A stretch of 64,000 nucleotides of DNA from Isoetes taiwanensis. Taxonomy: Eukaryota; Streptophyta; Lycopodiopsida; Isoetales; Isoetaceae. The DNA lies in the NCBI GenBank assembly GCA_021234155.1, contig JAJEKV010000036.1, positions 5,586,209 through 5,650,208 of the forward strand. The letters are read 5' to 3'. Shown here one piece after another: positions 24,018-64,000 of the stretch. The notes under the pieces are model-generated. The model saw only the letters and a program-made list of their open reading frames with translations. It ran no database searches and was not told the DNA's origin. Each line of letters begins with the position of its first letter. Positions within the stretch are counted from its first letter, which is position 1. Both the position numbers and the translations under genes were made by a program.

Positions 24018-26060
24018 TCAGACATCAATTTGTTCACTTAGATCATGCTCAATGTCCTCCACCTCATCATCATCTAGATATAAACGAAGAGCCAAACCTC
24101 TAATTGCTTCAAAATGATCATTTACATGTCCGGTAATCTCTTCGTCTTCAATATAATCCTCATCATGACCAAGAATGTGGATTGGCGAATTTAATGGAGA
24201 TCGAAGCACATAAGTTGCTTCTTTGTCAACTTCCTCTCTTTGTGAAAGTGCCAATGATGACTCTAAAGGAACATGCTCATTAATATCATCCTCAAGCAAA
24301 TCTTCTCCCAAATAAGCACCCTCCTCTTCAATGTTGATGCCAATATATGCCAGTTCTTCATCTTCTGCATCATGCAACTTTGGGTTATTATCAACATCAT
24401 TAACGACATCCAGAACACCCTCACGACTACCACCACCACCATAATCATCGAAATCATCATCAGCAAGGGCACCAACATGAACACCACCACCATCACCACC
24501 CCCATCACCATCCCCATTATCAAAATCATCATCAACATCAGTATGAATATCTTCAGAGAGCTCTTCCATGTTATTTTCAGCTACAGATAAAGCAATTACG
24601 CGTCGGGCCCACGGTTGACAATGTATGACAATCCACCAGTTTCTGTCATTAGGATTCTCATGGATAAATATCTGGGCAACCTGACTTGGAAAGACGAAAG
24701 GTTCTTTCATCTCAGGCAATACCTTTGAAGAATCCACTTCCGGAAATCCTGATGGATGAGTCCTAACTGTCTTGCCACGACCCCTGTATACAACTTTGAA
24801 CCATCGTGCCTTGAAGACATTTACATGAAAGCTACGATAATCCAACTCAATAATGTCTGTCAAGATTCCCATGTAATCTAGGCTACTCTCTAGAAGGTTG
24901 TGATCCTTGTTGCTAGATTGACTTTTTTGTTCAAATTCTGAGCTGATTCCTGAATCAAATGTAACCCTACACTTATCCACAGCGTTGATGCGAAAATGTT
25001 GCCCGTATGCCCACATTGAAGTATAGAATCGCGCCTAGAATGAAATAATAATAATGATGAGTAGTATAGTATAAAGAGAATGAAACTTTGGATTAAAGAA
25101 TTTCTCATACCTTTCTACTACAACCAAGGGCAAGCTCGTAATCATCATCTGGAATAACTTGACCACAATCTTTAGCTTCGTCCATACGAGCCAACAACCA
25201 TGCACTGTTCATAACATCTGGCATATATTGTCCTATTGATCACCCTGTTAACCTTCTTTGTGCATCCTCCTTAGCAGTTTCATATAACTCCCTCCATGGT
25301 TGTAAACTTGCAGCATTATTAAGAACAAACGTGCTTACCGCAAGAAGCATATCATCACTTAGACTTCGTTCTACTCCATTACCTTGTAATACTTCTGATG
25401 TAATCTCCTTGGATTCTTCTTTCTCCCATAATTTAGGACCATCAGGATGGCAAGAGGTAGTGGCATCACTTAGATAAAATAGTGTTTCTTGTATAAGATG
25501 ACCTTCAGCCATGCAACCCTCTGGTTTTGCCATTTGACGAACAAAACTTTTGAGCACCTTCATGTAGCGCTCTAAGAAAAACATCCACCTGCTAGGAGCA
25601 GGTCCTGCCAATCTTATCTCATTTGGAATATGTATCAACAGATGTACCTATGTATATAAGCACATTGTTATTTGCACTTATAATTGATAGAAGTAAAATT
25701 GCATAACTATATAGAGTTTGCCTAGTAGTACCTGTAGATCAAAAAAACTGGTCGGAAATTCTTTTTCAATGTCACAAAGCAGTACAATCACTTCCTCCTC
25801 TACTTTTGATATCTCAGCCACTTCAATTTCTTTGGAGGAGACCCATCTTGCAAATTTTCCCAGTCGGAATATAATGCTTCTTACTTGTGGGGTCAAGAAG
25901 TCTCCCATTATACATGGAAGTATATGCTGCAAAGTACATGTTAGTATCATTGCATATATTCCAATATAATTTATCACAAAAAAATAAAAGTACAATAATC
26001 AAAGTATACCTGAAGAAACTTGTGCCAATCATGTGTTGGAGATTTAGAATCAACATGCAT
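24018..26060 (-). pseudogene. CACTA TnpD-like gene, DUF4218 and DUF4216 part
   Basis: Deduced minus-strand exons with consensus borders: about 26060-26010 (SPTHDWHKFLQ), 25926-25732 (ILPCIMGDFLTPQVR...PTSFFDLQ), 25647-25111 (VHLLIHIPNEIRLAGP, SRWMFFLERYMKVLKSFV, RQMAKPEGCMAEG) and 25034-24018 (DYMGILTDIIELDY, VNVFKARWFKV, then an acidic Asp/Glu/Gly-rich tail). The first three exons carry DUF4218 and the last DUF4216, the usual partners C-terminal to the CACTA transposase. A premature TGA at 25240 lies before an exon end that still reads in frame (YMPDVMNSAWLLARMDEAKD). The catalytic domain expected upstream is missing; a coiled-coil frame sits there instead. Called pseudogene for the stop and missing domain. 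Confidence 0.85.
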
Positions 26061-31459: not shown

Positions 31460-31946
31460 TGTGGTTGAGAGAATCATGTCATGATATGTTGATTTGGGAA
31501 TGCAAGATTGAAGTTGAATGCTTAGAACATATACGAGATTGAGAAGACTAGGTTAAGAAGACAATATGAAGTTCAATGGTTTAAAGTTATAGTGGTTCAA
31601 TGGTTGAACTCATACATGCTTTGATGACATTAACCTTTAATGGTTTTAATGTGAACCTGCATGGCAACGATTAAATAGTATTCTATCTATATTAAGCTGG
31701 TCTCGATTATTCGAGCCAGCACAGCTGCATTCCGATCGGTCCTGCAAGACCAACGGATCTCTGAGTTCTTATCCGGCCATTGCAAATTGGTCTGGCATCC
31801 ACTGGTGCCGGATCCGACCTAAAGAGAACGAGCAAAGGTTGAAATTCGATGAATAAGTAGCAGTCAATATATGAAATTGAAGAAGTTAAATTGAACTTGT
31901 GTTGATATTATAATCTATATGAACTAACAAATTGCTTCTGACTTCA
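31460..31946 (+). repeat. 5' LTR of the copia element
   Basis: Starts TGTGGTTGAGAGAATC (the 3' copy has TGTTGTTGAG) and ends GACTTCA. It lacks a segment of about 113 bp present in the 3' LTR (38737-38850 region), just after the shared CAATATATGAA. Confidence 0.93.
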
Positions 31947-31948
31947 TA

Positions 31949-31960
31949 TGGTATCAGAGC
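31949..31960 (+). promoter_or_regulatory. primer binding site (initiator Met tRNA type)
   Basis: TGGTATCAGAGC lies two bases after the 5' LTR end. It is the common plant copia primer site, complementary to the 3' end of initiator methionine tRNA. Confidence 0.95.
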
Positions 31961-31973
31961 AGATAGTGGCATA

Positions 31974-32866
31974 ATGGCCAGCAGACTAGGAGCAACACTT
32001 TTAAGTGGCATTGATGTATACAAAGGAGGTTCTGGCTTCCAAGTCTGGAAGAAAAAGATTGAGGAAGTATTGAAAGTAGAAGGCTTATGGAAAATCATGG
32101 AAGATGAAGAACATGGTACTGTGAACAGTCCAACAAATAGCAAGGGAAAAACCTATGCTAGTGCAGCAGCCTCAGGCACTGCTGGAAGTCCAGCAAAAGA
32201 TGTAAGTGGAGGTTCTAGCTCCACTGAGGTAACAAGTGCTTCACCAGATGCTTCTCAAAGGGCAAAAATTCTGGAAGCAAAGGTAGTTATAAAGAGCAAA
32301 CTGAGCTCTAGTATCCTTTTAAGGACGAGCGGAAGGGAAATGTGGTCTTATCTTTTAAAGACCTACCAAGTTAAAACTTCCTCTCAATTGGATGTCCTAG
32401 ACAAGGAATTGAGAGAGTTGAAGTACAAAGAAGGAGAGGACATTAAAGACTTCTTTGAGAAGTTTGATAAGGTCATTGCTGACCTCACTGCTGCAGGGGT
32501 ACCCATAACCAATGAATATCAAGTTTTGTCATTGGCAAGAGCATTCTCAAAAGACAGAAATCTGTCTACCTTGGTCAGGAAATGGCCAAAAGCAGGGAGG
32601 ATGCTGAAAGTATGATAAAGACTGAATTAGAGCAACACAATTTGGCTGCTGAAAATGAAGAAGAACAAACTGAAATTCTGTATATTGCTGGAGGGAAGAC
32701 TCGAGGAGGACAAGGTAAACTAGGTCCTTGCTTTGCATGCAATGCATATGGTCATCTGAAGGCCAATTGTCCTAAGTTAAATAAAGAAAATAAATGCTAT
32801 AATTGTGAAGGATTTGGTCATGTAGCCTCTAACTGTTCAAGTCCAAGGGATTTTTCAAAAAGATAA
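31974..32866 (+). pseudogene. copia gag
   Basis: The ATG at 31974 begins MASRLGATLLSGIDVYKGG and the frame runs through the UBN2-like capsid region (QVWKKKIEEVL, SGREMWSYLLKTYQVK, YKEGEDIKDFFEKFDKVI) to about 32570, where a frameshift is needed. The second frame carries two CCHC zinc knuckles (CFACNAYGHLKANC and CYNCEGFGHVASNC) and meets a TAA at 32864. The product would package RNA in virus-like particles. The frame and stop breaks mean no full gag is made. Confidence 0.9.
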
Positions 32867-33853
32867 GAAGGGAATGTGGCTAAAGCTGGCAGGCGCGGAG
32901 GTTACAATATCAGAGGAAGATCATCTCGAGGGAGAGGAAGGGACAGGTCCACTGAACTAAATGTGGCCACTGAGAAGAATATTGAACCAAAAGAGGAGCT
33001 TGATGAAAATGCTGAGGTAAGTCATTCTAAATTATTAGCAGTTGTCTCAGATTATAAACTAAAGGATGTTGAAAATTTTTATGTGTTAGATAGTGGAGCT
33101 GAGAGAAGCGTGATCAAATCACCTTCTATGCTCAAAGAAAAATTTCAGAAAAATGCAAGCTATGTGCAGATGGGTGATGGCAATTTGCAGAAGGTGGATC
33201 AAGCAGGATTATTAGAAATCTTTGATCTTGAAGGAAATCCAGTCATTCTAGAGAATGTACTATGTGTGCCCAATCTACTTAGAAATTTAATTTCTGTAAC
33301 TCAGTTGGTGAATTTGGGATATCATGTTCATTTTGAAACTTATCAATGCAAAGTGCTTTTGAATGATGAAGTTAAATTCTTAGCAAAAAGAGTTGGCAGA
33401 CTTTTTGCATTTCATAACAATGTTCATGAGACAATAAATGCTGTTATGACTTCAACAATCAAGATGTGGCATGAAAGATTAGGGCATACCCATCTAAATA
33501 ATTTGAACTTCATGATTAAGCAAGGACAAATTATGGCAGAAAATAAAGGGGAGGACAATCTAAACTGTGCTGGCTGTTTTAAGGGAAAATCGAGCAGACT
33601 GCCATTTCCTAAGAAGGCCAAAAGGGCAAAAGAATTAATTGAACTTGTACATAGTGACCTCTGTGGACCTTTGAATGTGAGAAGTATATATGGTAAGAGA
33701 TATTTCATTACATTTACTGATGATTTTTCCAGAAAGACTAAATGCTACACATTGAGAACCAAGGATCAAGCTTTTGAAGCCTTCAAGTTGTACCAAGCTG
33801 AAGTTGAGAGACAAACAGGTATGAAACTAAAATGCTCAAGAACTGACCGAGGA
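32867..33853 (+). pseudogene. copia protease and N-terminal integrase
   Basis: In the same frame as the zinc-knuckle part of gag: a basic Arg/Gly-rich linker, protease active site VLDSGAERSVI, the GAG-pre-integrase zinc region (MWHERLGHTHLNNLNF through CAGCFKGKSS), and the integrase core up to HSDLCGPLN, FTDDFSRK and CSRTDRG. The frame stops being copia at about 33853, where the LINE begins, just after the second catalytic Asp. The region holding the catalytic Glu is absent on both sides of the LINE. Confidence 0.92.
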
Positions 33854-36055
33854 AGGACGGAAGGAAGGAAGGTATTTTTATCGTCGACGGAGACCAATCG
33901 GTCTATGGGGCCCAATACAAAAGCGCAGCAAGCGGATTACTACCCGGATTAAAAAACCCTTGCCCCGAAGGGTTTTCAAGGGAAAAACCGTGGCAGCAAT
34001 CAGCCTGCTGACAAACTGTTCCAACATACAAAATGCAAAAACACACAAATATATATACACTCATGTACCCATAGTGCCTGATCAGCGAGCAGCCAGGGGG
34101 GGAGCAAAGGTGGGCTCGCAGATCCAGTACCTCCTGAATGCATGATCCCAGAGCACGTACTGACGGTGTGTTCATCAGCAAATGTAGGGGCAAGTCCGGC
34201 CGTACTAAAGGAACGTGATCCGCCCGGATCCGGTGAATCTTTGGGCAACTCGAAAGTGTGAGATTCATCCTCAATGGCACCCGTTTGACAAAGACCGACA
34301 AAGCCACATCTGGCGGGGCTCCCCCGCCCGATCTCGATCTCTTGGAGATGGTGGGCTTTGTCGCGAATGGAGGCAATGAGCCTACTTTTTTCGAGGGGGC
34401 AACCGGGAGCAGCGGTGTAGAGCTGCTTGGGCCCCAGCCAACGGAGGGTTGATGTGCTCCTTGTAATGGGCCATTTTGACACGCTTTCTGCACGGGGGTC
34501 CCGAGCTTGCCACGGAAGCAAGCGTCCAGGTATTCTGCAATTTTGTCTGTCACGATCGGCCTCTCGTCCCACCGCGATCACGTGCTCTGCGACGTTCCAT
34601 CGGCAAACCACCGCTCTCTCTTACCCCTCCACAGGCCCCGAGCCTTCGCTGGGCCCATTGCCTTAACGTAAGCTAGATGCGGGGCCGAAGCATCCCCCAT
34701 ATTAACCACTTTCTCGAAAATAGACGATGTGTCTATCAAGGGCTGCCGCTGAAGCGGCAAGAATCCAGTTTCTGCAGCTAGAATCGATGGGGATCAAGGT
34801 TTCACCCAAGTGCCGTGCCAAAAATGCCTTACGCACCTGCTCCAAGTCATTCCGGGCCGCCAAAGAGGCGAATAGGGCCTCAAACCTCGACCCCATACGA
34901 AGGGACAGGCTCGACTAGCGCCCAAATGTGATGTGATTGATGGCCCCAATCATAGAGCTCGCTGGTGGTTGTTGTTAAGCATGGCATAAAGCGCTTTCCA
35001 GCCTGCTGCCACCCACAAGCGGATGGACGTCTTCCAACTGAGCGAGGAGGGGAACTCCACCCCTAGGTATACTTGTAGGTGGGCGTGACCTCCATAGGCT
35101 GTCCTCGATATGTGAGTGCAGGAGGCGTGGGGTGGCGTGAAGAGGATATGAGAACCACCCTGGTCTTGGCCAGATTCACGCCGCATGTCCAGAGCCGGGG
35201 AATGTGTCTAGGGCATCCAAATGGGACTGCATAGCTTCTGAGGTGTGGGCCAGAAGGTCAACATCGTCCGCATAGATGCTGGCGGATGACCTGGTGCAAA
35301 AGTTGTATGCCATCCCCTCCATGCTCAGTAAGCCAGGGCTCTAATTGGTCAATGTAGAGGCCAAAAAGTGTTGGTGAGAGGGGGCAGCCCTACCGGACGC
35401 CGATACTACTGGTGAATGATTGGCCCGTTGGCTGCATCCTGCCAAAACAAATCTCATACACCGTGATATGGCATTACGCCGCACGGCGGCGGCAGCCCCA
35501 GGTTAGCGCAGTCTAGCCCATAGCTTTTCGAGGGGACCGATGAAAGCCTTCGCGAAGTCCACAAAGCAGCAATACAAGTCCTGCCGATGGTTTTGGCTGT
35601 CTTCAATCAGTGCCCGCAGTGTAAAGATATGGTCAACCGTTGAGTGGCGGGGTCTAAAGCCTGCTTGTGTGAGGGCTCGACATATCTGCCGCCTACGCCA
35701 GCGGGTCAATCGCTGCTTTCGAGAATGCCGATAGCGGTTTGGCAAAATCCGAGCCCGACCATGATCGTCCGGTAATTGGCCAGACAGTGTGGGTCGCCTG
35801 CCTTGTGAATGGGGACAACCCTGCTTATGGTCCATTGTCGGGGGAAACCTTCTTGCAATGCTCTGTTGAACAGGGTAGTGAGGATCGGCACCAGCGGCTG
35901 CCCTGCCCATTTGAGTAACTCGGCCTGCATACCATCGAGGTCAGCTGCCTTCCCATTAGCCAGCCATTGCAGGCCCTCCACAACATCCTCCTCCGCGAGA
36001 ACCAATGGGGAGCCATCCTGTGGGGGTATGGGCATACACGTCCCTAGTGGGTCAT
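33853..36055 (-). mobile_element. 5'-truncated LINE inserted in copia integrase
   Basis: A GC-rich minus-strand insertion of about 2.2 kb. It reads RT start (EEDVVEGLQWLANGKAADLD, FPRQWTISRVVPIHKAGDP), a frame change, motif A (QAGFRPRHSTVDHIFTLRAL, CCFVDFAKAF near 35540-35565), an intact YADD (35263-35274), the thumb (YLGVEFPS, GWKALYAM), and a C-terminal zinc-like region near 34290 (GLCQTGAIEDESHTF). Several frameshifts separate these, so it is inactive. The 3' end carries a perfect AAACCCTT/AAGGGTTT stem-loop (33954-33975) and a GGAA/CCTT repeat tail (33853-33873). No target duplication is visible. Confidence 0.9.
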
Positions 36056-38228
36056 AGAGCTACTGCAAGTACTGCTCCCACTACTCCAGATGAATTATGG
36101 TATAGAATAAAACCCTCCTATGATAAATATAAGGCATATGGTTGCCTTACATATGTATTAGTTCTAGAAGAAGAAAGAAAAAAGTTGGATGATCGAGCAC
36201 TTGAATGTTATCTAATTGGTTACGATGAACTGTCAAAAGGATATCAACTCTATGATCCTTCAAGAAAAAGAATTTTGGTCAGCAGGGATGTGTATTTTAT
36301 TGAGAATAAGCTCTACAAGGAAAGAAGGATGGACAGCCCAAGCAAACAAGTGGATAAAGATGTTTATAAGGAAAAGGAAGTCACATTTGTTGATCTACAT
36401 AGTGATGACTCAGGGAGTGATTAAGCATTAGCTGGAAATAAACAAAACAACACAGAAAATTTAGAGCCTGATTCTGAAAATGTTGAGGAGTCAGATACAC
36501 AAGAAACAACAAATGAAAAAGATCCAAAGCAGTCAAGGAAGACAGAGGTTGAAAAATTAATGGAGGATGCCATGATCAATGTTAATAATTATGGACGTAC
36601 CAAGGAAGGAAAAAGTAGAAGGCTGAATATTTTGGAAGACTCAGAGGCCATCATAATGGCCATTATAGAACCAAATGTTCCACAAAGCTATGATGATGCT
36701 ATCAGAAGTGTGCATGCTTTAAATTGAAAACAGGCTATGGAAGAAGAATTAAATGCCTTTAAAAGAACTGATACTTATGAATTGGTTAAGAAACCAGAAG
36801 GGAAAAATGTGGTTGCAAGCAAGTAGATTTTCAAAAATAAACTTGGATCAGATGGAAAGTCCACAATATACAAGGCTAGACTTGTGGCAAAAGGATATTC
36901 TCTGAAAAAAAGGGTTAGATTATAATGAGACATTTTCTCCTATAGTGAAACTTGCAAGCATCAGGCTCTTGGCATATGCTAGTGCACATGATTTAGAAAT
37001 TCATCACATGGACGTTAGTACAACATTTTTAAATGCAAAACTTGAAGAAGACATATTTATGCAACAAGCAGAAGGATTTGAACAAGGTACAGGAATGGTT
37101 TGGAAGCTAAAACGAGCAGTTTATGGACTCAAGCAATCTCCTAGAGCATGGTATAAGTGCATGGATAGTTTTTTGAGAACAAGTGGTTTCAGAAAACTTG
37201 AGAGTGATGGGAATATTTATTTGTTTAAGGACAAACAGAATTTTTGCATCATAGCATTATATGTAGATGATTGCATTATGGTAGCTAAAAATGGCACATG
37301 CTTAAATGACTGCAAACAAGTTCTCAAATCCAAATTCAAGATGACAGATCTTGGAGAGCTCAAGAGATTTTTAGGGATCGAAGTAACTAGAAACAAAGGT
37401 GAAAGAAAGCTAATTCTTACCCAGGCAATAAATATTCAAAACATTCTTAGCAGATTTGGAATGGAAAGCTGTAATAGTGCTGCTACTCCTCTTGTGACAG
37501 GCCACAAAATTTCAGACAACATGTGTCCCAAATCAGAGATTGAAGCAGAAGAAATGTCAAACATTCCATACAGAGAACTAATAGGTTGTCTTTTATATGT
37601 AGCAAATTGCACATGCCCTGATATTGCATTTTCTGTTAGTTTGTTAAGCAGATATTCCAATAATCCAGGAAAGACTCATTGGATAGCTGCTAAGAGGATT
37701 CTAAGATTTCTTAAGAGGACTCAAAATGAAGGTATTTGCTATTCTAATAGTCAATTGCAGCTATAAGCCTATTGTGATGCAGATTGGGCTTCTGACCTAG
37801 ATCAAAGGAAGTCAACATCAGGATTTACCCTAATGTTAGCTGGAGGCTCATTTGCTTGGAAATCTAAAAAGCAAAATAGTGTTGCAATGTCATCTGCTAA
37901 AGCAGAGTATGCCGCAACAACATTGGCTGCTAAGGAGATAGTATGGGCAAGAAGATTGCTTAATGAGTTAGGAGTGATCCAAATTAATCCCACAGTATTG
38001 TTAAGTGATAGCTTAAGCTGTATAGCTATCACTAAAAATCCAATCATGCACCAGAGAACTAAACACATTGAAATTCATATGCACTTTATCAGGGAACAGG
38101 TTGCCAAGAAGATCATTTCAGTTGAATATGTGAAGACTCAGGAACAAGCTGCAGACATATTGACTAAAGCTTTGTCACAGATTAAATTTGATAAGTTCAG
38201 AATTATGCTGGGAATACATGAAAAATAA
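36056..38228 (+). pseudogene. copia integrase C-terminus, reverse transcriptase and RNase H
   Basis: After the LINE the copia protein resumes (TTPDELWYRIKPSYDKYKAY, ECYLIGYDELSKGYQLYDP) to a TAA at 36422. It continues past further stops (36726, 36823 and a double stop near 36922) to reverse transcriptase: HHMDVSTTFLNAKLEEDIFM, VYGLKQSPRAWYK, and the catalytic LYVDDCIMV near 37258-37284. A TAA at 37764 separates RNase H (AYCDADWASDLDQRKSTSGF, SSAKAEYAATT, LLSDSLSCI, RTKHIEIHMHFIRE), which is otherwise intact to 38228. Confidence 0.93.
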
Positions 38229-38320
38229 TAAGATAAGTTCAGGTTGATGCTGGGAATACATGGAAAATTAATAAGCTGTTACAGTAATCAAGTCAGCTCA
38301 GCAGATTCAGGATCATGACA

Positions 38321-38331
38321 TGAAGGGAGAG
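38321..38331 (+). promoter_or_regulatory. polypurine tract of the copia element
   Basis: TGAAGGGAGAG lies directly before the 3' LTR start, the expected plus-strand primer position. Confidence 0.85.
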
Positions 38332-38931
38332 TGTTGTTGAGAGAATCATGTCATGATATGTTGATTTGGGAATGCAAGATTGAAGTTGAATGCTTAGAAC
38401 ATATACGAGATTGAGAAGACTAGGTTAAGAAGACAATATGAAGTTCAATGGTTTAAAGCTATAGTGGTTCAATGGTTGAGCTCATATATGCTTTGATGAC
38501 ATTAAACCTTTAATGGTTTTAATGTGAACCTGCATGGTAACGATTAAATAGTATTCTATCTATATTAAGCTGGTCTCGATTATTCGAGCCAGCAGCTGCA
38601 TTCCGATCGGTCTTGCAAGACCGACCTCTGAGTTCTTATTCGGCCATTGCAAATTGGTCTGGCATCCACTGGTGCCGGATCCGACCTAAAGAGAACGAGC
38701 AAAGATTGAAGTTCGATGAATAACTAGCAGTCAATATATGAACAGTGCATAGTCAATCCCATTACTACAGTGTTTTTTGTATGATTATTGTAATGGTCTT
38801 TATAAATTAAGTTGCACAATGGGTCATGCTAAATTATAAGCTTTAATGGTGTTCTATTGAAGAAGTTAAATTGAACTTGTGTTGATATTATAATCTAACA
38901 AGGATCAACTAACAAATTGCTTCTGACTTCA
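38332..38931 (+). repeat. 3' LTR of the copia element
   Basis: 600 bp, beginning TGTTGTTGAGAG and ending GACTTCA. It carries about 113 bp (after CAATATATGAA) absent from the 5' LTR; either an insertion here or a deletion in the 5' copy. Confidence 0.93.
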
Positions 38932-40220: not shown

Positions 40221-42159
40221 TTAAAGACCTGAATTTTTTAGGTAATCATCAGTTTCAGCCCTACAAAGGTCATCTAATGCTTTCAATTTTCCTTCACAAT
40301 CAAAATCTTCATTGCTGTAGTCTTGAAAGTCATCATCAGAATCTTCAAGTTTTCTTTTCTTTGTACAATTCTCTTGATTGTCTTCAATATCTTCACTATC
40401 AACTCGTATTGGTATATTTACAAACAAGTTCAGCCCTTGACTAGATCCATCCACACCATTTAAAGCAATCTGCATTTTTTCTTCAAGTGTCTGACTCTCA
40501 ACATTTGGGCAATCTAATACTTTAGCAGTTGGACTCCTTGGAATTAAAATAGCACCTTCATCTGTGTCCTACATTTCAGATTCTAGCATCTTTACATTTT
40601 TTTTTTTCAAATTCTTTTTGGTCTATATGTAGGTTCCTCTATGTTTTGCATGGAAGCTCTTTATGAAGCTTCCCTTTTCTCTTCCCTTAGCCTTTTATTT
40701 TCCTCTTTTCTCTTCTTCTCTAGTTCCTTAGCTTCCCTTCTTTGTGTCTGAACTTTTTTTTTCTCTTCTAACTACTCTTGCCTTACCCTAGCTGTTTCCT
40801 CGCACTATCTTTGGTATTCTAGTTTGGCTTGCACCATCTCAACTGAAGTTACATATAATCTGTCCCTTAAATGTTCAATCTAAGTCTTTTGGACTTAGGT
40901 CTGTTGTTGCTGCTAGTTGAAGGATGCTTGTACATGTGACAATGACATTTGCTAGTGCAACAAGTGCATTACCATCACCTGCAATTTATTTTTTCTAATG
41001 AGAATACTGGTAGTAAAGATTTAGTAATAAAAGACAATTTGAATTCAGCAATTTAATCTCATCAATAAGAAACTTATACTTTACCATCAGTTTGAGGTGC
41101 AATTTGAGGTGCAGCAAGTGTATTATCATCGCACGCGGTAGTACGGGCAATTTACTTCCAATTAATAGCTAATACTAGTGGAAGAACTAATATTTATAAT
41201 AAAAGAGAGAGGGATATCAATTTACCATGAGTTTGAGTTGCCTTTGTGCAAGCTTTAGCTCCATCCTCTTCTGCTCCATTGGCACCATCACTTGCATCAT
41301 TTCCTGATGTAACTCTATCTGTATCAACTCCAAAAACTGCTGCAACTATTGATGCCCTCGCAACCAATCTTTCTTGCTCCATTCTATCTGCCACAACTTC
41401 TGGTTGGACCTTCATTGGTTCCCATGGCCAAATTCCAGTTTTAAGAAAATCAACAGAAATATTACTTTGAGAAAGGATCGTAGACAATGAATCAGACACT
41501 ATAGTGGCCAGATCTTCTTTAATTGGCTCAACATCATACTTGTGATGCATAAAATGAGCCCTTGACTTTCTAAATGCAACTTTGAATGGATGAAAACAGG
41601 AAACATCCAGAGGTTGCAGCTTATAGGAAGTATGAGGTGGCAATTGGACAATATGCAATCCAATTTCCCTTGCTTTTAATATAGTTGCCATGTTAACATG
41701 GCTGCCATGTCCATCACAGATTAAAAGAATAGAATAGAATAGATTTTTTAACGTCCACGGAGACCAATAGGTCATGGGACCCATACAATGGGCTAGTACA
41801 ATCATTACTACTAGGATTAAAAGATGTCTTTCCCTAAAGCCTTTCCACCACTTCTTACCAGACAGTCCATCCTTAAAGCATGTTGATCTGTTTATGGTCA
41901 TGGTTGCAACTTTTTGTTTCATAATATCTAGATTCACAGCACGCCCTTCATCTGATAGCTGGAGAGCCCACTCTACAAGTATTTTCTCCTCCTCGAGAGA
42001 CAAACCCTTTGGATTAGAACCAAATTTATTTTTGCTTTTGCCATACAAGTGGTTCCTGAGCGTGGTTTGTGGAATACCAAAGTGCAGACCAGCTTTTCTA
42101 ATGGAGAAAACTTCATCTTCAACAGAATCTATGGCAGACTCTAAAGATTCGATTGTCCA
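40221..42159 (-). pseudogene. pogo/Tigger-like (DDE_1) transposase gene, broken
   Basis: The minus strand from about 42159 encodes a Psq-type helix-turn-helix (ESLESAIDSVEDEVFSIRKA through HFGIPQTTLRNHLYGKSK), then a CENP-B-type DNA-binding region (LSLEEEKILVEWALQLSDEG through SGKKWWKGFRERH). After an inserted LINE tail the DDE_1 core resumes with the second catalytic Asp (ICDGHGSHVN) and HIVQLPPHTSYKLQPLDVS, SNISVDFLKTGIWPW. About 150 residues with the first catalytic Asp are missing at the insertion. The frame ends at 41194. A decayed Lys/Glu-rich coiled-coil region (about 40630-40880) and an acidic C-terminal frame (40475-40221) may be its last exons. A TAG lies just upstream of 42159 in frame, so an earlier exon or promoter is lost or spliced. 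Confidence 0.8.
41724..41824 (-). mobile_element. LINE 3' end fragment inside the transposase gene
   Basis: The 101-bp block matches the 53.4 kb LINE tail almost exactly (the shared run includes CGTCCACGGAGACCAATAGG). It ends in a TTCTA-type repeat (41724-41743). It stays in frame with both flanking transposase parts, so the merged frame is open across it. Confidence 0.88.
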
Positions 42160-45100
42160 AGAACCCTACCAGGAGCTCTCACAACTTTCTTTCCAGCATT
42201 TGTATGCTTTCTAGCAGAGATTAATGGCTTAGATCTACTTTTCCTAGGAGGAGGAGGTGGATCATTAGCAGCTTGAAATTCAGGATTGGCATCCGGTGCA
42301 AAGACAATAGTTCTATTACCTTCTAAGATTCATTTTAACATATGCAAGGGGATTACTGGGCTAAAAATTAAACGTAAGAATAGAAGACATGCCTGGGTTC
42401 ACAAATAAATCCTCCAGCCAAAGCATAATTCTGTTAGCCCGCATGCACAACAAACAAAATCAACATGCTTGCATTTGAAGCTCTGATTTAACATCAATGT
42501 TTATAGAAAAACTAAAGCTTACCTTTGCTTCAAGATGAAGAGAGATCATCCAAGAAGGAAGCACACACAATTTCAGAACTCTTGAAGCTCTATTTATACC
42601 TACACGAACCAAAAAATCCTATTAGAAAGCATGCATTGAAAGATGCAAGCAAGGAAAAGAAGGCATCAAAGGCTATGGAGTCAGCCATGTCAATGATCCA
42701 TCTAGTTTGCAGCAGAGATCTTGCCATATCAATGATCTAGAGATCATTTTCATCTCAAATCATGGCAAAGAGGCGCCAAATTGATGAAGAGCCTCAAACG
42801 TTTGGAGGGAATCGTGGGTGGAGGCACCAAATACAGCAGCAAAAGGATTCCAATGGTCGTTGATGCAAAAACTCCATAAAAATCCATCCCCATTTAGCAA
42901 AGGTGCAAGGGCCTTCAATGGCGCCAAGGCCACCAACGGATTCAACAACCATAACTAGTGTAAATCTCGTTGCCGTCATAGTCTAAATTAGAGTATGCTA
43001 TTCTAGGTTTTCTATGCACAAAATAAGTCTCCATGCACACCTTCACAACTCCAAACCCTCGCCAATGAGGATGCTACGTGAACCAACGGCTTGCCGACAT
43101 CTTGCAAATTTTAGGGTCATTTTAACGCCGTTGACGGAGACGTCTCCATTGACGGGGACTCCACCTTAGTAATAGTAATGAACTGAAAAAGTTCGGGCGA
43201 TCTAACTTTATTTATACCCAAAGAAAACCACAAAAAATTTCACACATAAATGATCTGCAATGACTTCACATAAATCTCGATGTGGTCGTGGTGGTGCCAC
43301 TGCCTAAAAGCTCATATCTTTATCCAGCTGCAATTCGTCTGCAGGCTGTCACAATCTGGCAGCGAAAGTTCTGCCATGCCAGAATCATTAGAAGACTGCC
43401 CGATGTTGGTATAGCTACGTGTCTCGGAAACGGCGAGACGGAATCAATCAGAGAAAGAACATGCCGTTGAGTGTTTTTCTATTTTTTCTTTTTGCCTAAA
43501 CAACGCTATTTTTTGCCCCCGAAACACAGAATATGCCAAAACTTAAACGTATCATCCTTAAATCTGAAAAGCATCTTGTCAATAAGAATTACATGAGTTA
43601 GATTATATGATGCACCTTTAGACAAGGTATCTTCAATGTTGGCAATTATTTGAACTAAAGTTTTTTATATGTGTGTACAATTTCAACAACCAAAAAATGT
43701 CGTAATAATTTGCAAATGTTTATTATCATTTAATTTGTAGGCTCACAATCAACGTCAACCTGCCATTTGAAGTACAATATTCACATTGCGTGTGGTCTAT
43801 TTATATCTCCAAATTAGAATTGATAGAAAAGATTGTTTTATGCTATCTAGCTTTTTAACGGGGCACTGAGAGGGAGTTCCTCATATCTCCCATTTCTTTT
43901 CACATTTTTAAAATGGTGATATTTTTCGAAATCAGGCATATAAGATTTATCTTTATTTTTCCTTGCACTGAATGAACTAGTTTTTCAAATCTATCAGAAT
44001 CTGTAGTGTAGACCAAATTACATGGTGATGCAAGTTTTACATTTCTGATTCACTCAAAGTCTATATAACAAAGTCCATGCACCACTACTTTATCCCATCT
44101 ACTTCAATAATGCATTTGTTTGCAGAATAATTTAGGGGTTCAAGCTTTGAATCTCAAAATCACTCAAAGTCTACACAACAAAGTTCAACGATTGAAGTCT
44201 ATAGTCGCAATACAAAAACCTTCTCTCTAGGTATTGTTATCCTCTCTAACACTATAAGAAAATCTTCCTTCAGGAAATCTCAAGGGAAATCTCAAGGGAA
44301 TTTAAGTACAGGTAAGTAAAACCAGACACTATTCCAACTTCGGACGCATCGAAAGACTCCGCGATTAAGTTCTTGTAACAATAAAAATTACAAGAAAAGA
44401 ATATCTAACTGCCCATGAAGAAGATTGAAGATGCTAAACTAAAACATGAAAGCCAAAACAAAGATGAAAGTACTGCAAGGTGCACCAATGATGGATGTCG
44501 ATGAAGTTCAAAGATGCTAAACTAAAACATGGAAGCCAAAAGAAATATGCTAGTGCTGAAAGGCACATCAAAGATAGCTAAACATGCTTATGTGTCTTAC
44601 AAATTGAAAGGTGCACCAATGATAATGTGGGCACAAATTCAAAAACACTTAGGTAATCCTGCAGATTTGCAAGATTTGCAAGCTGATTTGCTCTTTAACT
44701 ACGTCTTAGACTTTATCAAAATGGGCGGTAAAAAGTACAGGAGGGTGGCCGAAAATAGTTTATTAACTCGGCAGAGGATAGTTTTTTCTTTCTTTCAAAA
44801 ATTGGCTACGCGTCCGAAGTTATATGACCTCTCTAAGGTTCGAGTTATGCACATCAGAGACTGCTAATCTTCTCTTCATGCTTTCAAGTTTATCACATGC
44901 CCGAAACATGCCACCGTCCTACATTCAAGAAGCCCATCAAGTACAAAGACCAGCATAGAACTTTATCCTTGTAGTTGGCTTGCTTTGAAACAACACCACC
45001 TGTTTCTCAGCATTTGAAGATACTCTACTCCAGTCACCACTTGCTACAATGACCATGAGGTAGAGTTCCACGTCAAAATCCTTGCTGAAGGCAAAGTATT

Positions 45101-45431: not shown

Positions 45432-46543
45432 TCAACTCTGAAGAGTACTTGTGTGTGGAATAAGATAATTAGGGCGAATCACAACACAATCTACAATGAG
45501 TCCAGTTTTCCAGTAACTTCCAAGTTCTGTCATTGAAAAATGTATCGTAATTGGATCAATTGCATCTGTGACAAGAAAGTCACCAATGTCATATTCTGTC
45601 CAAACTTCATCAATCAACCTTGTAGCAGCTAAATGTTGTACATTTTCTTCAGCTAAAGCCGTCATTATCTTGCATTGGGATTCCTTATGCTGACCATCTG
45701 ATGTTGAAAGGATAAATTTTGCTAGTCCACGAGATAAACCATAGTTCTCTCTATTCACTTGCATCCTGAATGAAACAGTGTAATATCCAGGATGTAGAAA
45801 GCATTCCAAACTCCCAACCACCTCAAGCCAGCAAACGTTCCTTAGATAAGCAACTTCATGAAACCTGTTATCTTAAGCAATAAAGTTATTTTTACTTGAA
45901 GACTAGGGAAAGCAGTTCAAATCAATCTTTGATCAAAAGGCAAGCAACGTCAGTAGATAGATGTTGAGATACATTAACTAGTAAAAAACAAAGATGCGAG
46001 AACAATATAATAACCATGTACTAAGATCCAATTCATGGAGTTGCTTAATAAGTACCTAGATTTGGCGTGCGAGCGCCATTCCCAGTAACGGGGATCATCC
46101 TTCCAAACGATAGCCAATGCTTTTGAGGATAACATATAGCACATACCTCCAGTAGGACGATCCACAAAAAATATCTATGATTGCATCAAAATGAAATACA
46201 TAAACGTGTGCATTAAGAAATCATACATTGAACATTGGCAAGGTATGAACTACTCAATTACCTCATTTCCATCGCGGATGAAGATCCCAGAAGCTAGCAA
46301 ATTATAAATATTTTGCCGGTCTGAGACAGTCTTAGCTCCACAGAGATTTCTGACATTCTCGTCGGAAGCTAAGAGCAAGAGGTGTTCATAATTGGGAGGG
46401 AGGAGGGGCTCTACTGATTTAGAAGCCTTGAAAAATTTACGGCATACGAGAGCGGATCGAGCAACATCTGCAGGAGAAATTTTTGCAAGGATGGAAAGGA
46501 GACAATCTTCGTGGAGGTCGGAAAGATTGTTGGGCGCTGTCAT
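45432..46543 (-). CDS. F-box protein, PP2-B (phloem protein 2-like) family
   Basis: Three exons with consensus borders give an uninterrupted 277-residue protein: 46543-46262, 46174-46056 and 45864-45432. The N-terminus is an F-box (NLSDLHEDCLLSILAKISPA, then DVARSALVCRKFFKASKS), expected to bind SKP1 in an SCF ubiquitin ligase. The rest is the PP2-type lectin-like domain: GGMCYMLSSKALAIVWKDDP, RYWEWRSHAKSRFHEVAYLR, NVCWLEVVGSLECFLHPG, YYTVSFRMQV, WKTGLIVDCVVIRPNY. Length and intron positions fit the PP2-B family. The ATG at 46543 has A at -3 and is the first ATG in the exon. No disruption is seen, so probably functional. Substrate unknown; glycan or stress-linked roles of relatives are only a family-level guess. 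A MITE lies about 250 bp upstream. Confidence 0.92.
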
Positions 46544-46793
46544 GGTTAAACTAGAAACAGGGTTATGCGCTTTAAGCTTCAGAGTCACTCTTGGGATATG
46601 CCAGGTGGCTGCAAATTGACAACGTGATCAACTACGGTATTAGGGTCCCTTTTACGGCCCATATTTTTCTCTGTTGCGTTATCATTTGGACCTCTGGCGC
46701 ATTTTTGCCGATGGTTAGCAGTAGTTCTGGTAGGCTCCGGATCTAGCTGTGGATCCCGAAAGAGCATCACTCGTCTGGCCCTGCACTGCTTTA

Positions 46794-47171
46794 GAGCCGG
46801 TTCACATGCAATGAAGGTGCCATCACCGTCGTGTAAAAAGGCTCACCAATTTACACGCACCATCTCCTGCCATCGCCAAATAGCACAAGGCAAAACAGAG
46901 CCCCTCTCTGACGATGGTTGCATGTCTGGGTTCACATGCAACCATCGCCGGAGAGGGGCCCTGTTTTGCCCTCTGCTTTTTGGCGATGGCACATAGGCAC
47001 AATAGGGCCCCTCTCTGGCGATGGTTGCATGTCTGGGTTCACATGCAACCATCGCCGGAGAGGGGCCCTGTTTTGCCCTCTGCTTTTTGGTGATGGCACA
47101 TGATGGTGCGTGTAAAAGGGCCTGTCTTTTTACGTGATGGTGAGGGTTGCATCGTGCATGTGAACCGGCTC
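46794..47171. mobile_element. Tourist-like MITE (PIF/Harbinger type) with TTA target duplication
   Basis: 378 bp bounded by terminal inverted repeats GAGCCGGTTCACATGCA (46794-46810) and TGCATGTGAACCGGCTC (47155-47171). TTA occurs on both outer sides (46791-46793 and 47172-47174), the 3-bp duplication typical of PIF/Harbinger elements. The interior is non-coding and highly self-complementary. It sits upstream of the F-box gene. Confidence 0.88.
46889..47069. repeat. two long hairpins in a 107-bp tandem duplication within the MITE
   Basis: Hairpin 1 pairs 46889-46925 with 46934-46970 (37-nt arms, few mismatches, 8-nt loop). Hairpin 2 pairs 47004-47032 with 47041-47069 (29-nt arms, about one mismatch). 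The shared core is GCGATGGTTGCATGT / ACATGCAACCATCGC. Transcription would give long double-stranded stems. Confidence 0.88.
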
Positions 47172-53390: not shown

Positions 53391-53570
53391 GAATAGAATA
53401 GAATAGAATAGAATAGAATAGAATAGAATAGAATAGTTTTTTTAACGTCCACGGAGACCAATAGGTCATGGGACCCATACAATGGGCTAGTACAAGCATT
53501 ACTACTAGGATTAAAAAACCCCTGCCTCGAAAGGTTTTCAAGGGAAAAACCTTTGCAGTAATGATGATAC
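53391..53570 (-). mobile_element. LINE 3' end with (TTCTA)9 tail
   Basis: 53391-53436 is a perfect GAATA array (TTCTA on the element strand) directly adjoining the family's 3' terminus, including the AAAACC/GGTTTT stem-loop (53515-53538). About 130 bp of element remain. It is the closest relative of the 41.7 kb fragment. Confidence 0.88.
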
Positions 53571-54959
53571 TAGACAAGCGGAGATAATGACTACTGAGGG
53601 CTCAGTAATTGCAGATGTTTATCTAGAACCTCAAGTATGTATAATGCCAAGTCATGCACAGATGGTGCTCTGAGAAGTTGTGGGAGTTGTGTGAGATCCG
53701 AAACTTGTCAATTCAAGGCGTCAAGAAACATTTGACTTGCAAATTCGTTAACCTACCTTGCTACATGAATTAAATAATGATCCTCTACAACGTCGAGGAG
53801 GAGGAGAAAGAGGAGTTTTTACATCATGCCAATTTCTTATCAAATTGCCTCGACTTGAATGCGTAGGCTATAAGTCTATTGGGATCTCTCGAGCCAACTT
53901 GCAATTGTGCGTCCTTCGATTGATGCATTTGAGAAATTTCAACAAAGAAAAGTTGTGGAAAAGTTTCCGACTAAAACAAAACCTCACAATCGCAGTCCTA
54001 CACGTTGAAGAAGAAGATATGGAAGGATTTGAGCTTCTGCAGCTACGGCAGCAGTTGCCTTTATAAACATCTTCAATCAGAAGTACTATCTTATCTCTGG
54101 CAATTATTTTGTTACTGCATCGTTCTTCTCCAGCTCCTATCTCCCCGTTAGAAGTTTGTATGCTCCTTTTTCAAAGGTTTCTAATGTATGTGCTTCATGG
54201 AGTTACCTCTGCCATTATCTATAGTCTGCTCTGAATCCAGCTCTTTCATTCCATCGTCCAATACTTCCATCTCATCTCCAATCTCCTCTGTGACAGAGCT
54301 CTCTAAATATTTCGTGATCTTCTATAATTTGGATCAAATCTATTGTGGCTGGTTGGAGGGATCTACTGTGGATCTTTGGGCTTTTCTTGTGGACGGATCT
54401 ATTTTCCCAGACATCTTCTTCATTGGTGAGCAATCTGGTCCTACTAGCAATACCCTAACATCCTCCATTGAGCTTACAATTGCTCACCTGGGTTATGATC
54501 GTCCTCCAAAGGCGAAGTTCATAATCTATTATGATCAACTCACTGATTTGTTACTCTGGAGCTCTATAGAATTTAATGTGGTTTCTCCATGGAGTACCTG
54601 CTGCTCTCTTCTGACTCCAGCCTCCAAACATCTGAAGCTTCCTTTACAGAGTCTCCCCAACCTATTTCTTCCTCTTCAGCGTCTCCTCGGAGCTCGTCTT
54701 TTCCTCAAGGTTCTCTAACCATTATCAGATCGGCCTTTCTCGTCAATACAAAATTTATCTAGTGGGGTTTTGTCCAAGGCCCTGTTCATCAGCTCTAGGC
54801 TACTATTATTGATAGCAGACATCTCTTCCCTGACTAGTTTAATTGCACAGGCGGCCTTGATATTATAGGAGATCCATTCCAGATCAGAAGACAAGTGAGG
54901 CAGCTTGTTTTTGGAGACTAGGGTGTTGAACCCACCCAATCTGTTCTAGTTACTTGCAC
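53571..54959. other. unassigned; possibly decayed 5' part of the following LINE
   Basis: Frames at 53758-54066 and 54188-54718 (176 codons) are open on the same strand as the LINE and could be its eroded leader or ORF1 start, but I see no motif to support a call. Confidence 0.35.
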
Positions 54960-59047: not shown

Positions 59048-60501
59048 CTGGGAACAGGCAACAAAATCCACCTTACTTACATTTTTTGGGCATGTATCTT
59101 TTTATAGGTTTACTTGAAGCTGAGGATGATGGAGATGTTGGAGTAAGCATTTGAAGTGGCAGAGGATGGTTGAAGACCTGGTGAGTTGGATCACCTCATG
59201 AAATTGCCAGAGCATATTCATGGCTGTGGGGGTGCTACCACAGCACAGTATACTTGCAGGATATTAGAAAAAGAGAAAAAAAAAGGAGAAAAAGAAAGAA
59301 AAAAAAAAAAAAAGGAGAGTTACTCTAGGCTCATAGTTGCTAGCTAGTTTTATCTCTGGTTTTAGTTGTTGAAGGCATTTTCGACTATTGAAGAAAAAAA
59401 AAAAGGAAAAACAACAAGTGAAGAAATGGAAAGGACGAAAAGCAACAAAAAAATTAATTAGGGTTAATCAGATTTTGAACTGTTGGAGCTGAGAATTTGT
59501 CTGCTACCGGATTCGTGGAGGGAAGTTGCATCTGCAGTTATGGGATGCCAGGTACGGTTTGTTGGTATGTGTTTTTCGGAAAGCATAAAGATCAGGAAGC
59601 ACTCAGTTACAGGCGAACGGGATTCAAGAAGAGCTTCGTTTCCATCTATGTTTTCTTCAGAAACCGGGTTATTGAACTGTTATATTTCTATTCTATTCAA
59701 TTCAAGCTGTGTTGATTTCGTATGCATTGGATATGTTCATGTTGGTCTAGAGTCTCCTTCGAATTCACTCTAGGAGCCTATTCCGATTTCCTTTGGCCCT
59801 TTTCCGAAATGCTAAAATTATAATTTCGTCACAATAATTTTTCAATTTCTTTGATTTCCCATATACCATTGCATTGCCCTTCGTATTACCAATTACACAA
59901 GGATTCTCCCTAGGATCGAAATATTGTTCTCCCAGAACCATTTCTCTCCTTTGAAAAGGAGGGAGAGAACTTGGATCTTTGATCTTTGTGCATTTTGCAA
60001 AAAATATCCTTCATATTTGAACAAAGACTTGCATACCCGATCATTCTCTTTAATCCAGCAAACGGAAGGTGGAGCACACTATTCTTCCAAATTCATTTCT
60101 CTTCTTTGAAACAGAGGTGGAGACTTTCATACTAAAGCATTCCCTTTTTGCCAGCAAATAGAAGGTGACGTACATTGTTTTCCAGATTCATTTCTCTTCT
60201 TTGAAACAGAGGTGGGGAATTTGGATCTTGTGTGCACCCTACAAGGAAAACAAAAACTATACTATCTGAATGCTTGTTACATCACGTGTGCAATTCCTTC
60301 TTTTGAAATAGAGAGAAGGAAACTTGCCTATTTTCTAAAGCCTTGTTTTGAAGGGTGGAACTAGGCCCTTAAGACTAGTTCTGGAGGTTCTGTACCAAAA
60401 CAGAATAGTTGCCCAATAGAGCCAGGAATTGTGGCAACATTCTTTGGAGGTTCTACCGAGATACTTTGACTGTGAGCATTGTCTGGCACAAAGACACAAG
60501 C
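59048..60501. other. leader or LTR region of the downstream gypsy element (boundaries not found)
   Basis: No gene. Two A/G-rich tracts (59268-59316 and 59393-59460) and a minisatellite (59935-60330) occur. An LTR is expected here for the gag-pol at 60502, but the 3' LTR lies outside the window, so ends cannot be set. Confidence 0.4.
59935..60330. repeat. degenerate minisatellite in the gypsy leader, about four units
   Basis: The clearest pair starts at 60091 and 60186 (95 bp apart) and shares ATTCATTTCTCTTCTTTGAA followed by ACAGAGGTGG. Weaker units begin near 59935 (longer, about 156 bp) and 60290. The inner phrase CCAGCAAAYRGAAGGTG also recurs. Confidence 0.75.
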
Positions 60502-63500
60502 ATGCCACCCAAAAGCAAAACCACAGGAGAAGCTGACGCAGGAGAAGGTAGCACAGCAGTAGCAGAGGTACATTCAATGCCTCCCCCCTATCAGATTGAA
60601 GTAAACCTGCCTACTCCAGTACCTACGTTCGATGGATCCAAAAATCCTACAGAGTTTCTGAGCCACTTTGAAGAATATTATGCTGATTTTGGTAAGAAGA
60701 AAGGAGATAAGATTTCAGTCTTTGGTCTTGCAATGAAGGGAGATGCCAAGGGATGGTTTCTTTATCAAAAGAGCTGCCAGATAACCACATGGGAGGTATT
60801 GGTGCACAATTTCTTGGAAAGATTTGGCACCGTGAGCACCAAGAATGGGTTGGTACAAGAGATTTGCACTATGACCATTAGGAGGGGCGAGAGCATACAT
60901 CTTTTTGTGGAAAGATTTAACTCTTATCTTCTGAGATGCCAGGAGCAGAAAGTAGAGACACCTACGGACCATACGGTGTGTTTTTTCGTGGCTGGTCTGA
61001 AACCACATTCTAAGTTATACAGAAAAATGTTCAAGCTGCAAAGTTTGGGGCTTTTGGACTCAGTCTATAAAGCCTTCTCTAAGGCCATAGAATTATCAAA
61101 ATTGCAGCATTCTTTGCCTGAGGAGGAAGGACCAGGGTATGCAGCTGACTACAACCATCACGAATGGGACCAGGAGGCCGAACCATGTTTAGCAGCCTTT
61201 GCTAAAGATAAGAAGACCAAAATTGAAGAAGAAATAAAGGCTGAAGTTGCCAAGGCCACAAGTAAGCTGGAATTGAGCATGCAAAGTCTTATGGAGGTCT
61301 CCAAACAGCTGGCAGAAGCAGTTAAAGGTCAGCAGCAGATTTCTTCTTCAAATTCCGGGTTAGTATGTGCTTACTGCAATAGGACGGGACACTCGGAAGC
61401 TAGATGTTTTTCTAAACCATGCCAGAAATGTGGGAAACGAGGACACTTTGGGAGAGAGTGCCCAGTGTGTTCATTTTGTAAAGAGGTTGGGCACTTGGAT
61501 GATAGATGCTTGGTAAAGGAATACCTCTCCAAGCAAGATCGAGAAAAGAGTGCCAAAAAGGAGGAGGCAAGCACACCTTTCTGCCTGGTAGAAGTTGATG
61601 AAGAAGGAGAGCAAGTCCTTGCAGTTCAAACCAGGGCACAGCATGTAAAAGAATCTCCAAGAGTCACTGTTACAGCCCACAAAGCCGAACAGAAACCATT
61701 GGCTAATTGTGAAATAGAGCAGTTGTTAAAGAATGCGAGGATTAACATAGATTTGGTGACGTTACTCAAAGTGGCTCCAAAGTATAGGGAACAACTCTTC
61801 AAGCTTGTGGAGGAAGATCAAGAATATTGTGCCACGAACCTTGTATCATCCAAGACAGATGTTGACCCAGGTATTTTCATGTGTGAAGCTGTGCTTAATG
61901 ACGTTGCCTTGAAAAATGTATTTTTAGACGGAGGTTCAGGGCTGAATGTTATGCCCTTACACATCATGCACAAACTTAAGATGCAGATTGATGCCCCTAC
62001 CACGCTCATGCTGAAGTCTTTTGTAAATCATAAAGTTAAGCCCGTAGGGATGATCACTAACATAAATATTAATGTGGGAGGGGTACGTGCCATCACGGAC
62101 TTTGTTGTGGTGTCCTTTGGCTCAGAAAGCTGCAGTAGTTTGTATGACCTGATCTTGGGGAGGAAATGGATGCGTGCAGTCGATGCCAGGCCAGTTTGGT
62201 CTCAGGGGACTTGTACTATAACAGATGGCTCAAACAGGACAGTGTTATACAATAGAGAAGGGGCAGGAATTGGCCCGTCATGTGGAGAGGAGCTCATGTT
62301 CATGGAGACAGAAGACTTGTTGCAGTCTAGGGGCATGGGACGTTGGGAAATAGACAGTCTCAACGCAGCCTTAACAATTGAGCATGAAGACAATATAGGG
62401 ACATTGTGGGTTGATGGTGAGAACAAAACTGTAGTCTCAGAACCAGTGCTCGTGAAGCCATTATCTCAACACAACAAAACTGCCAGTTTATGGTTTGATG
62501 GCGGGATCTCAAAAAGGGCTCAAGTGGCAGCTGCTGGGGCAGTTCTTAAGGACTCATGTAAAAGAATAGTGGCCCGATCAGGTAAAATCGTCCCTGCAGT
62601 AACTTCAAATGTGGCAGAGTATGAGGCTCGCCTCATGGGTCTTAATCAGGCAATGGATTTGGGATTTGAGCAGCTGCATATTTTTGGAGATTCCATGTTA
62701 GTCTGTAAGCAATTGACAGGAGAATTTCAGGCCAAGCATGAGGATATGCGCAGATACAAAAATCTAGCATTGGAGAAATTGAAATACTTTGGGCAGTGGA
62801 GCATACAGCACATCCCTAGAGGAGACAACATGGAGGCTGATTTGGTGTGTAGAGAAGCCTTAATGGATTACCTGAAAGAACAGTCCATAGCAGAAGAAGA
62901 TCTTCCAGAAAATGCCCTGAGATACATGCACCCTATTTTGGTGATAGACACAAGCAAAGAAACAAATGTGCAGCAAATTTTGGTAACAAAAAATGGGAAG
63001 GCAAGACAAGTGGCAATTGGGATGAACATCGAGCAGGAAGACCTACAAATTCTACAAAAGACGCTCCAAGAAATGTCAGACATATTCGCCTGGGATTATG
63101 ATGAGCTGAAGGGTATACCAACGCATGTCTGTGAGTTTGAGATTAAACTGAAACCTGGGGCAACTCCAGTAGTGCAAAAATTGAGAAGAATAAACCCAGC
63201 CTTATTGCCCTTGATTCAAGCTGAAATAGAAAAGATGTTGGCTGCTGGTCTTATTGCAGAAATAATAAACCCCACTTGGGTTTCATGCATTGTACCTGTA
63301 AACAAGAAAAATGGAAGTTTAAGGATTTGCGTCGATTATCAGGAACTCAACAAGGCAACCCTCAAGGATTTCTATCCGTTACCCTTTCTCGAAGAGGTCT
63401 TGCATGCTGTAGCAGGTAACCAGTATTATTCTTTCCTGGATGGATTTTCGGGCTTTAATCAAATCAGTGTGAAGGCGGATGACCAACCGAAAACAGCTTT

Positions 63501-64000
63501 TATTACGCCATGGGGGACATTTGCTATGAAAAGGATGCCCTTTGGGCTTATGAATGCACCTTCGACATTCCAAAGGACAATGGATACAGTGTTCAGAACC
63601 ATGCCTTCCAAGAATTTCAGAATATTTCTTGATGATTTGTGTTTGGCGACTACAAGAGAAGACCATCTCAACATGATCAGACAATTGTGCCTCCTGTGCA
63701 GGGATTTCAGTGTGTGTCTTAACCCTAAGAAATGTATTTTTTGGACCCAAAAGGGATTGTTGCTTGGCCATGAAGTTTCAGCGGGGGGAATTCAGGTGGC
63801 AGAAGACAAGGTAGCGGCTCTCCAGAAGCTTCCACCACCGAGCAATTTGAAGGAAGTAAAACGTTTGATAGGTATGATGAGCTTCTTGAGGTTGCATGTT
63901 CCTAATTTTGCACATATTATCAATCCTATATCAAAACTCACACGAGTAGGACATGTAGAGAAAGGCAAGAGCAAATACGTTTCCATTCTCTGGACCCAAG
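60502..64000 (+). CDS. Ty3/gypsy gag-pol with extra RNase H before reverse transcriptase (runs off the window)
   Basis: One uninterrupted frame of 1166 codons from the ATG at 60502 to the window edge. Order: retrotransposon gag (TFDGSKNPTEFLSHFEEYY, AMKGDAKGWF); three CCHC knuckles at residues 289-336 (CAYCNRTGHSEARC, CQKCGKRGHFGREC, CSFCKEVGHLDDRC); aspartic protease with LDGGSGLNVM (Asp 476); a plant/archaeal-type RNase H at about 660-785 with all four acidic residues in place (Asp 666, Glu 706, Asp 730, Asp 780); a link (DIFAWDYDELKGIPTHVCEF); then reverse transcriptase from about 880, with motif A FLDGFSGF (Asp 980) and FLDD (Asp 1044-1045), to LLGHEVSAGG and MMSFLRLHVPNF. The native RNase H and integrase should follow beyond 64000. 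No stop or frameshift was found, so the element may be young and possibly active. Probably related to the Tat/Ogre branch. Confidence 0.93.
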   Translation, partial: MPPKSKTTGEADAGEGSTAVAEVHSMPPPYQIEVNLPTPVPTFDGSKNPTEFLSHFEEYYADFGKKKGDKISVFGLAMKGDAKGWFLYQKSCQITTWEVLVHNFLERFGTVSTKNGLVQEICTMTIRRGESIHLFVERFNSYLLRCQEQKVETPTDHTVCFFVAGLKPHSKLYRKMFKLQSLGLLDSVYKAFSKAIELSKLQHSLPEEEGPGYAADYNHHEWDQEAEPCLAAFAKDKKTKIEEEIKAEVAKATSKLELSMQSLMEVSKQLAEAVKGQQQISSSNSGLVCAYCNRTGHSEARCFSKPCQKCGKRGHFGRECPVCSFCKEVGHLDDRCLVKEYLSKQDREKSAKKEEASTPFCLVEVDEEGEQVLAVQTRAQHVKESPRVTVTAHKAEQKPLANCEIEQLLKNARINIDLVTLLKVAPKYREQLFKLVEEDQEYCATNLVSSKTDVDPGIFMCEAVLNDVALKNVFLDGGSGLNVMPLHIMHKLKMQIDAPTTLMLKSFVNHKVKPVGMITNININVGGVRAITDFVVVSFGSESCSSLYDLILGRKWMRAVDARPVWSQGTCTITDGSNRTVLYNREGAGIGPSCGEELMFMETEDLLQSRGMGRWEIDSLNAALTIEHEDNIGTLWVDGENKTVVSEPVLVKPLSQHNKTASLWFDGGISKRAQVAAAGAVLKDSCKRIVARSGKIVPAVTSNVAEYEARLMGLNQAMDLGFEQLHIFGDSMLVCKQLTGEFQAKHEDMRRYKNLALEKLKYFGQWSIQHIPRGDNMEADLVCREALMDYLKEQSIAEEDLPENALRYMHPILVIDTSKETNVQQILVTKNGKARQVAIGMNIEQEDLQILQKTLQEMSDIFAWDYDELKGIPTHVCEFEIKLKPGATPVVQKLRRINPALLPLIQAEIEKMLAAGLIAEIINPTWVSCIVPVNKKNGSLRICVDYQELNKATLKDFYPLPFLEEVLHAVAGNQYYSFLDGFSGFNQISVKADDQPKTAFITPWGTFAMKRMPFGLMNAPSTFQRTMDTVFRTMPSKNFRIFLDDLCLATTREDHLNMIRQLCLLCRDFSVCLNPKKCIFWTQKGLLLGHEVSAGGIQVAEDKVAALQKLPPPSNLKEVKRLIGMMSFLRLHVPNFAHIINPISKLTRVGHVEKGKSKYVSILWTQ

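Follow-up and report, generated by a model that had tools for sequence, protein, structure and literature searches.

Plant Ty3/gypsy retrotransposons of the Tat kind combine a Ty3/gypsy-type reverse transcriptase (RT) with an additional ribonuclease H of archaeal type (aRH), and the position of the aRH differs between groups. According to Neumann et al. (2019, PMC6317226), an aRH between the protease (PROT) and the RT characterises the TatI elements of club-mosses and the TatII elements of gymnosperms, while the aRH of the angiosperm Ogre and Retand elements lies between the native RNase H (RH) and the integrase (INT). Biryukov and Ustyantsev (2023, PMC10508981) distinguished five structures among aRH-bearing Tat elements. 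Structure #2, with the aRH in pol upstream of the RT, is the second most frequent of these; it occurred in every gymnosperm genome that they studied and in three species of clubmoss. Structure #1, with the aRH between RH and INT, was found in several other groups, and it was the only one detected in ferns, three species of which were without aRH-bearing Tat elements. Here we describe an element at positions 60409-63999 of a 64,000-nucleotide stretch of DNA (the window), together with a diverged and decayed second element at 18188-20582. Judged by sequence, the first is very probably a Tat-type Ty3/gypsy element of a plant, of which the window holds the 5′ part; its domain order would be gag-PROT-aRH-RT-(RH-INT). 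This kind of element and its domain order are already known and are not new, a statement that concerns the kind and not this very copy.

The open frame and its archaeal-type RNase H

On the + strand, a frame of 1197 codons without a stop runs from 60409 to 63999 and is still open at the end of the window. An open run of this length has a chance of ~6e-35 under the base composition of 60001-64000. From the ATG at 60502, the domains follow in the order gag, three zinc knuckles, a protease-like stretch, RNase H and Ty3-type RT. The gag start and capsid region (60502-61308, the end coordinate being the limit of the query piece) matched Pfam Retrotrans_gag with an E value of 1.3e-8 at residues 105-198 of P0001. 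The three CCHC zinc knuckles were located in frame by their motifs at 61366-61407, 61420-61461 and 61468-61509, and one of the three was scored by Pfam zf-CCHC (E 3.6e-4, 20.9 bits vs a cut-off of 20.8). The protease region (61819-62208) is named from its motif, FLDGGSG at 61921-61941, and from its position. Behind the aRH (62479-62877), a linker that includes the start of the RT (62878-63288) leads to the RT core; the match to Ty3 RT begins near 63133, and the piece 62869-63288 gave no convincing Pfam family. The RT itself (63289-63999, frame open at the window end) matched Pfam RVT_1 with an E value of 9.5e-25 and carries the motifs FLDGFSGFNQI at 63433 and FLDDL at 63625. Among solved chains, the RT of Ty3 was the closest (PDB 4ol8, E 9e-45, query 63100-63996). 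All of these features lie on the + strand. So does the 5′ leader (59923-60229), in which a repeat search and blastn of the leader against the window showed three imperfect direct repeats ahead of the frame. Neither a pair of long terminal repeats (LTRs) nor a primer-binding site of this copy was found within the 64,000 nucleotides.

The domain before the RT is an acquired RNase H of archaeal type with a complete DEDD core. Its motifs are FDGG at 62494, AEYEA at 62614, FGDS at 62683 and NMEAD at 62827. The piece 62479-62877 alone matched Pfam RVT_3 with an E value of 3.5e-21 (6.6e-20 when the whole frame was used), and it scored 22.4 bits against PF00075 RNase_H, under the cut-off of 25.8. The best PDB chain was 4e19, a ribonuclease HI (E 2.2e-22, query 62491-62868), and in the printed alignment the DEDD residues stand opposite D, E, D and D of that chain. 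The next solved relatives were Rv2228c (3hst, E 5.8e-12) and then four further RNase H chains. One of the other matched chains, 3aly, is the archaeal RNase H of Sulfolobus tokodaii according to a figure legend in PMC5348765. NCBIfam NF041306, a halophile RNase HI, matched with an E value of 2.1e-25 and 89.7 bits vs a cut-off of 300, so the aRH is like this family in type and is not an equivalog member. When the aRH and the second element's native RNase H were modelled with AlphaFold from single sequences, the mean predicted local distance difference test (pLDDT) scores were 44.9 and 41.3, respectively, and the models were not used.

An earlier note on this DNA had read the frame in the same domain order and had placed an RNase H at residues 655-790. 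The motif positions and Pfam matches bear out the order, and all four RNase H motifs fall inside these residues when counted from the ATG. Its description of the RNase H as acquired and of archaeal type agrees with the matches to 4e19, RVT_3 and NF041306. The note had also called the gag-pol intact. The frame is indeed open from gag through RT, but it leaves the window before the native RNase H and integrase, so that the word reaches beyond what the window covers.

A second, decayed element in the window

Six query pieces of the first copy were compared with the window by tblastn, and stop-free pieces of the second element were compared back by blastp. Three of the six queries (aRH, rt_n and rt) found the second element, rt_n only with an E value of 0.029. 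The query nc matched itself and had three weak matches elsewhere in the window (E 0.023 to 0.32). The pieces of the second element are collinear and on one strand (+). The aRH (18188-18566, E 1.3e-19) was recovered by tblastn in two pieces, interrupted by frameshifts and stops, with 35% identity to the first copy at 18188-18346 and 45% at 18330-18545; the part 18333-18479 matched Pfam RVT_3 with an E value of 2.3e-4, at 21.5 bits vs a cut-off of 21.6. It is followed by a C-terminal piece of RT (18643-18949, tblastn E 4.8e-25), which is 57% identical to the first copy at 18643-18846 and 52% at 18845-18937. No RT core was found between the two. In the comparison by blastp, three of four stop-free pieces matched the first copy (aRH, 53% over 47 amino acids; RT, 59% over 64 and 52% over 27).

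Directly after the RT piece, an open frame of 358 codons encodes a native-type RNase H and then an integrase. The native RNase H (18953-19333) matched Pfam RT_RNaseH with an E value of 6.2e-18 and could be aligned to Ty3 (7q5b, E 1.3e-4), and its catalytic core is replaced. A Ser stands opposite the Asp of TTDAS and an Asn opposite the Asp of RTDHIS. By eye, the Glu also seems to be replaced by Ser, and the fourth place seems to hold no Asp; the choice of catalytic residues and these last two placements are our own, made by eye. The integrase (19334-20582) follows directly in two overlapping frames, with a match to Pfam Integrase_H2C2 (E 2e-12) and two weak rve matches under the cut-off (E 0.021 and 0.096). 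As read from these matches, the predicted aRH of the second element precedes the RT, its native RNase H has lost the core, and an integrase stands directly behind that RNase H.

If the two elements are taken together, an otherwise ordinary Tat life cycle may be proposed. The frame would be translated into one polyprotein, cut by the element's own protease. The aRH would supply the RNase H activity, removing the RNA template from the RNA:DNA hybrid during synthesis of complementary DNA. The native RNase H behind the RT, its catalytic residues gone, would be kept as a structural tether, as has been published for Tat elements and retroviruses. We infer from this a division of labour in which the aRH cuts and the native RNase H tethers.

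Comparison with described elements and alternative origins

The first copy has a Ty3/gypsy-type RT and an archaeal-type RNase H with DEDD, and its aRH lies in the pol frame between the PROT (named by motif) and the RT. With TatI and TatII (PMC6317226) it shares the Ty3/gypsy RT and the aRH between PROT and RT. With structure #2, described for clusters E, F, G and J (PMC10508981), it shares the aRH in the pol frame upstream of the RT, and no difference from that structure was found; a counterpart of its degraded native RNase H is visible in the decayed second element only. The same element also has RH followed directly by INT with no aRH between them, a region that in the first copy falls outside the window. 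Ogre and Retand share an archaeal-type aRH in a gypsy element and differ in having it between RH and INT (PMC6317226).

Several points weigh against the assignment to Tat. Membership is assigned here on architecture. The protease piece gave no Pfam match up to an E value of 5, and what would complete the first copy (native RNase H, integrase, 3′ LTR) is expected past 64000, outside the window. In the second element, neither gag nor protease was found, the gag and PR queries having matched only themselves in the window, and the C-terminal piece of its aRH (18483-18566) had no blastp match to the first copy. This element is broken elsewhere, so the residue losses in its native RNase H could partly be decay; its RH-INT frame has nevertheless stayed open for 358 codons. 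A search for relatives in contig collections (aRH and RT in viral_contigs, RT in genome_contigs) gave 3, 10 and 66 pattern matches, none of which was confirmed.

An archaeal-type RNase H might instead have been acquired independently, upstream of the RT, by a gypsy lineage outside Tat. We regard this as improbable, though it is the best of the alternatives. It would be compatible with the deep phylogeny of aRH, which Biryukov and Ustyantsev (2023, PMC10508981) called unresolved. Repeated capture also has precedents in print: PMC6317226 cites an earlier proposal of at least three independent acquisitions within Tat, and the oomycete elements Chronos and Archon are read as separate captures (PMC5348765). 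Set beside our element by description, Chronos and Archon are alike in having an archaeal-type aRH in gypsy elements and differ in that their RT is described in that paper as no more than a distant relative of the Tat RT. Against such an origin stands the diverged second element, in which the core of the native RNase H has been replaced as published for Tat. Biryukov and Ustyantsev (2023, PMC10508981) moreover judged several independent acquisitions not likely. The earlier note had offered independent acquisition as one of two explanations.

A chimera, in which a host RNase H gene or the aRH of another element was inserted by chance or joined in assembly, is very hard to credit. Only a single open copy was seen, and its aRH resembles cellular RNase HI, as such an event would allow. 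However, gag, PR, aRH and RT stand in one unbroken frame, and the second element, more than 40 kilobases away and 35-57% identical by tblastn, also has the aRH before the RT. There is equally little chance that the element mixes in structure #1, with another aRH behind its RH and before INT that was missed at the window end, where the 3′ half of the first copy is cut off, since the second element gave no RVT_3 match between its native RNase H and H2C2 and the 92 amino acids from the end of its RH piece to H2C2 are fewer than the ~130 of an aRH.

The earlier note knew the aRH of Tat elements from the position between native RNase H and integrase, which holds for Ogre and Retand and for structure #1, but other forms are catalogued. 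It proposed a rearranged lineage in which the RNase H had moved. Movement of the domain agrees with the scenario of PMC10508981, in which recombination between structure #1 elements probably gave rise to the other structures. An undescribed lineage was rejected, the order being in print (PMC10508981, PMC6317226); it is standard in the catalogued TatI/TatII and structure #2 families, and the note had itself named such a standing as grounds for giving its reading up. With the order catalogued and the idea of movement in agreement with the 2023 scenario, the earlier interpretation is partly supported.

Other features of the window and the range of the arrangement

Outside the two elements, the window holds a Ty1/copia element at 31460-38742 (RVT_2 E 3.3e-55), whose terminal repeats at 31460-31875 and 38332-38742 are in pieces 95-99% identical. 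An open frame of 688 codons at 12650-14713 encodes PPR repeats (PPR_2 E 1.3e-67). Long inverted arms at 2178-3068 and 11431-12198 consist of six pieces, 84-99% complementary and 8.4 to 9.8 kilobases apart. A dispersed repeat of 78 nucleotides occurs at 21621-21698, 33953-34030 and 53515-53592, and measured against the first copy the later ones reach 83% and 68% identity; the segment just before the first copy (21526-21590) matches 41725-41783 and, on the opposite strand, 5781-5823. A tandem duplication of 107 nucleotides at 46888-47101 (95%) lies near an F-box frame on the minus strand (46253-46627). Of two further minus-strand frames, one (41197-42165) encodes DDE_1 together with helix-turn-helix domains of the Psq and Tc5 types, and the other (24021-25034) DUF4216, a domain of plant CACTA elements. 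The PPR frame, the DUF4216 frame and the copia element point to a plant as host, and the PPR frame has a fern-like look. No tRNAs were found in the window, and Rfam gave no matches at gathering scores over its whole length.

The striking domain order at 60409-63999 is a catalogued plant arrangement, to which the window adds a copy open through aRH and RT and a diverged second copy with a degraded native RNase H. In a liverwort genome paper (PMC12885004), centromere-enriched domains are labelled TatI, TatII and TatIII, so these labels may extend beyond clubmosses and gymnosperms. The main text of the Cryptomeria genome paper (PMC11539532) makes no mention of TatI, TatII or aRH. Among the papers listed, as represented by titles and the beginnings of abstracts, there was no report of structure #2 in a fern, by which we do not claim its absence from print. 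If the window came from a fern, a reading that is less likely than not, the reported range of structure #2 would be extended to a group in which only structure #1 had been detected, with a bearing on the question whether a single move of the aRH or several took place within Tat. Such an occurrence would also bridge the distance from clubmosses to gymnosperms and speak for a vertical persistence of the order.
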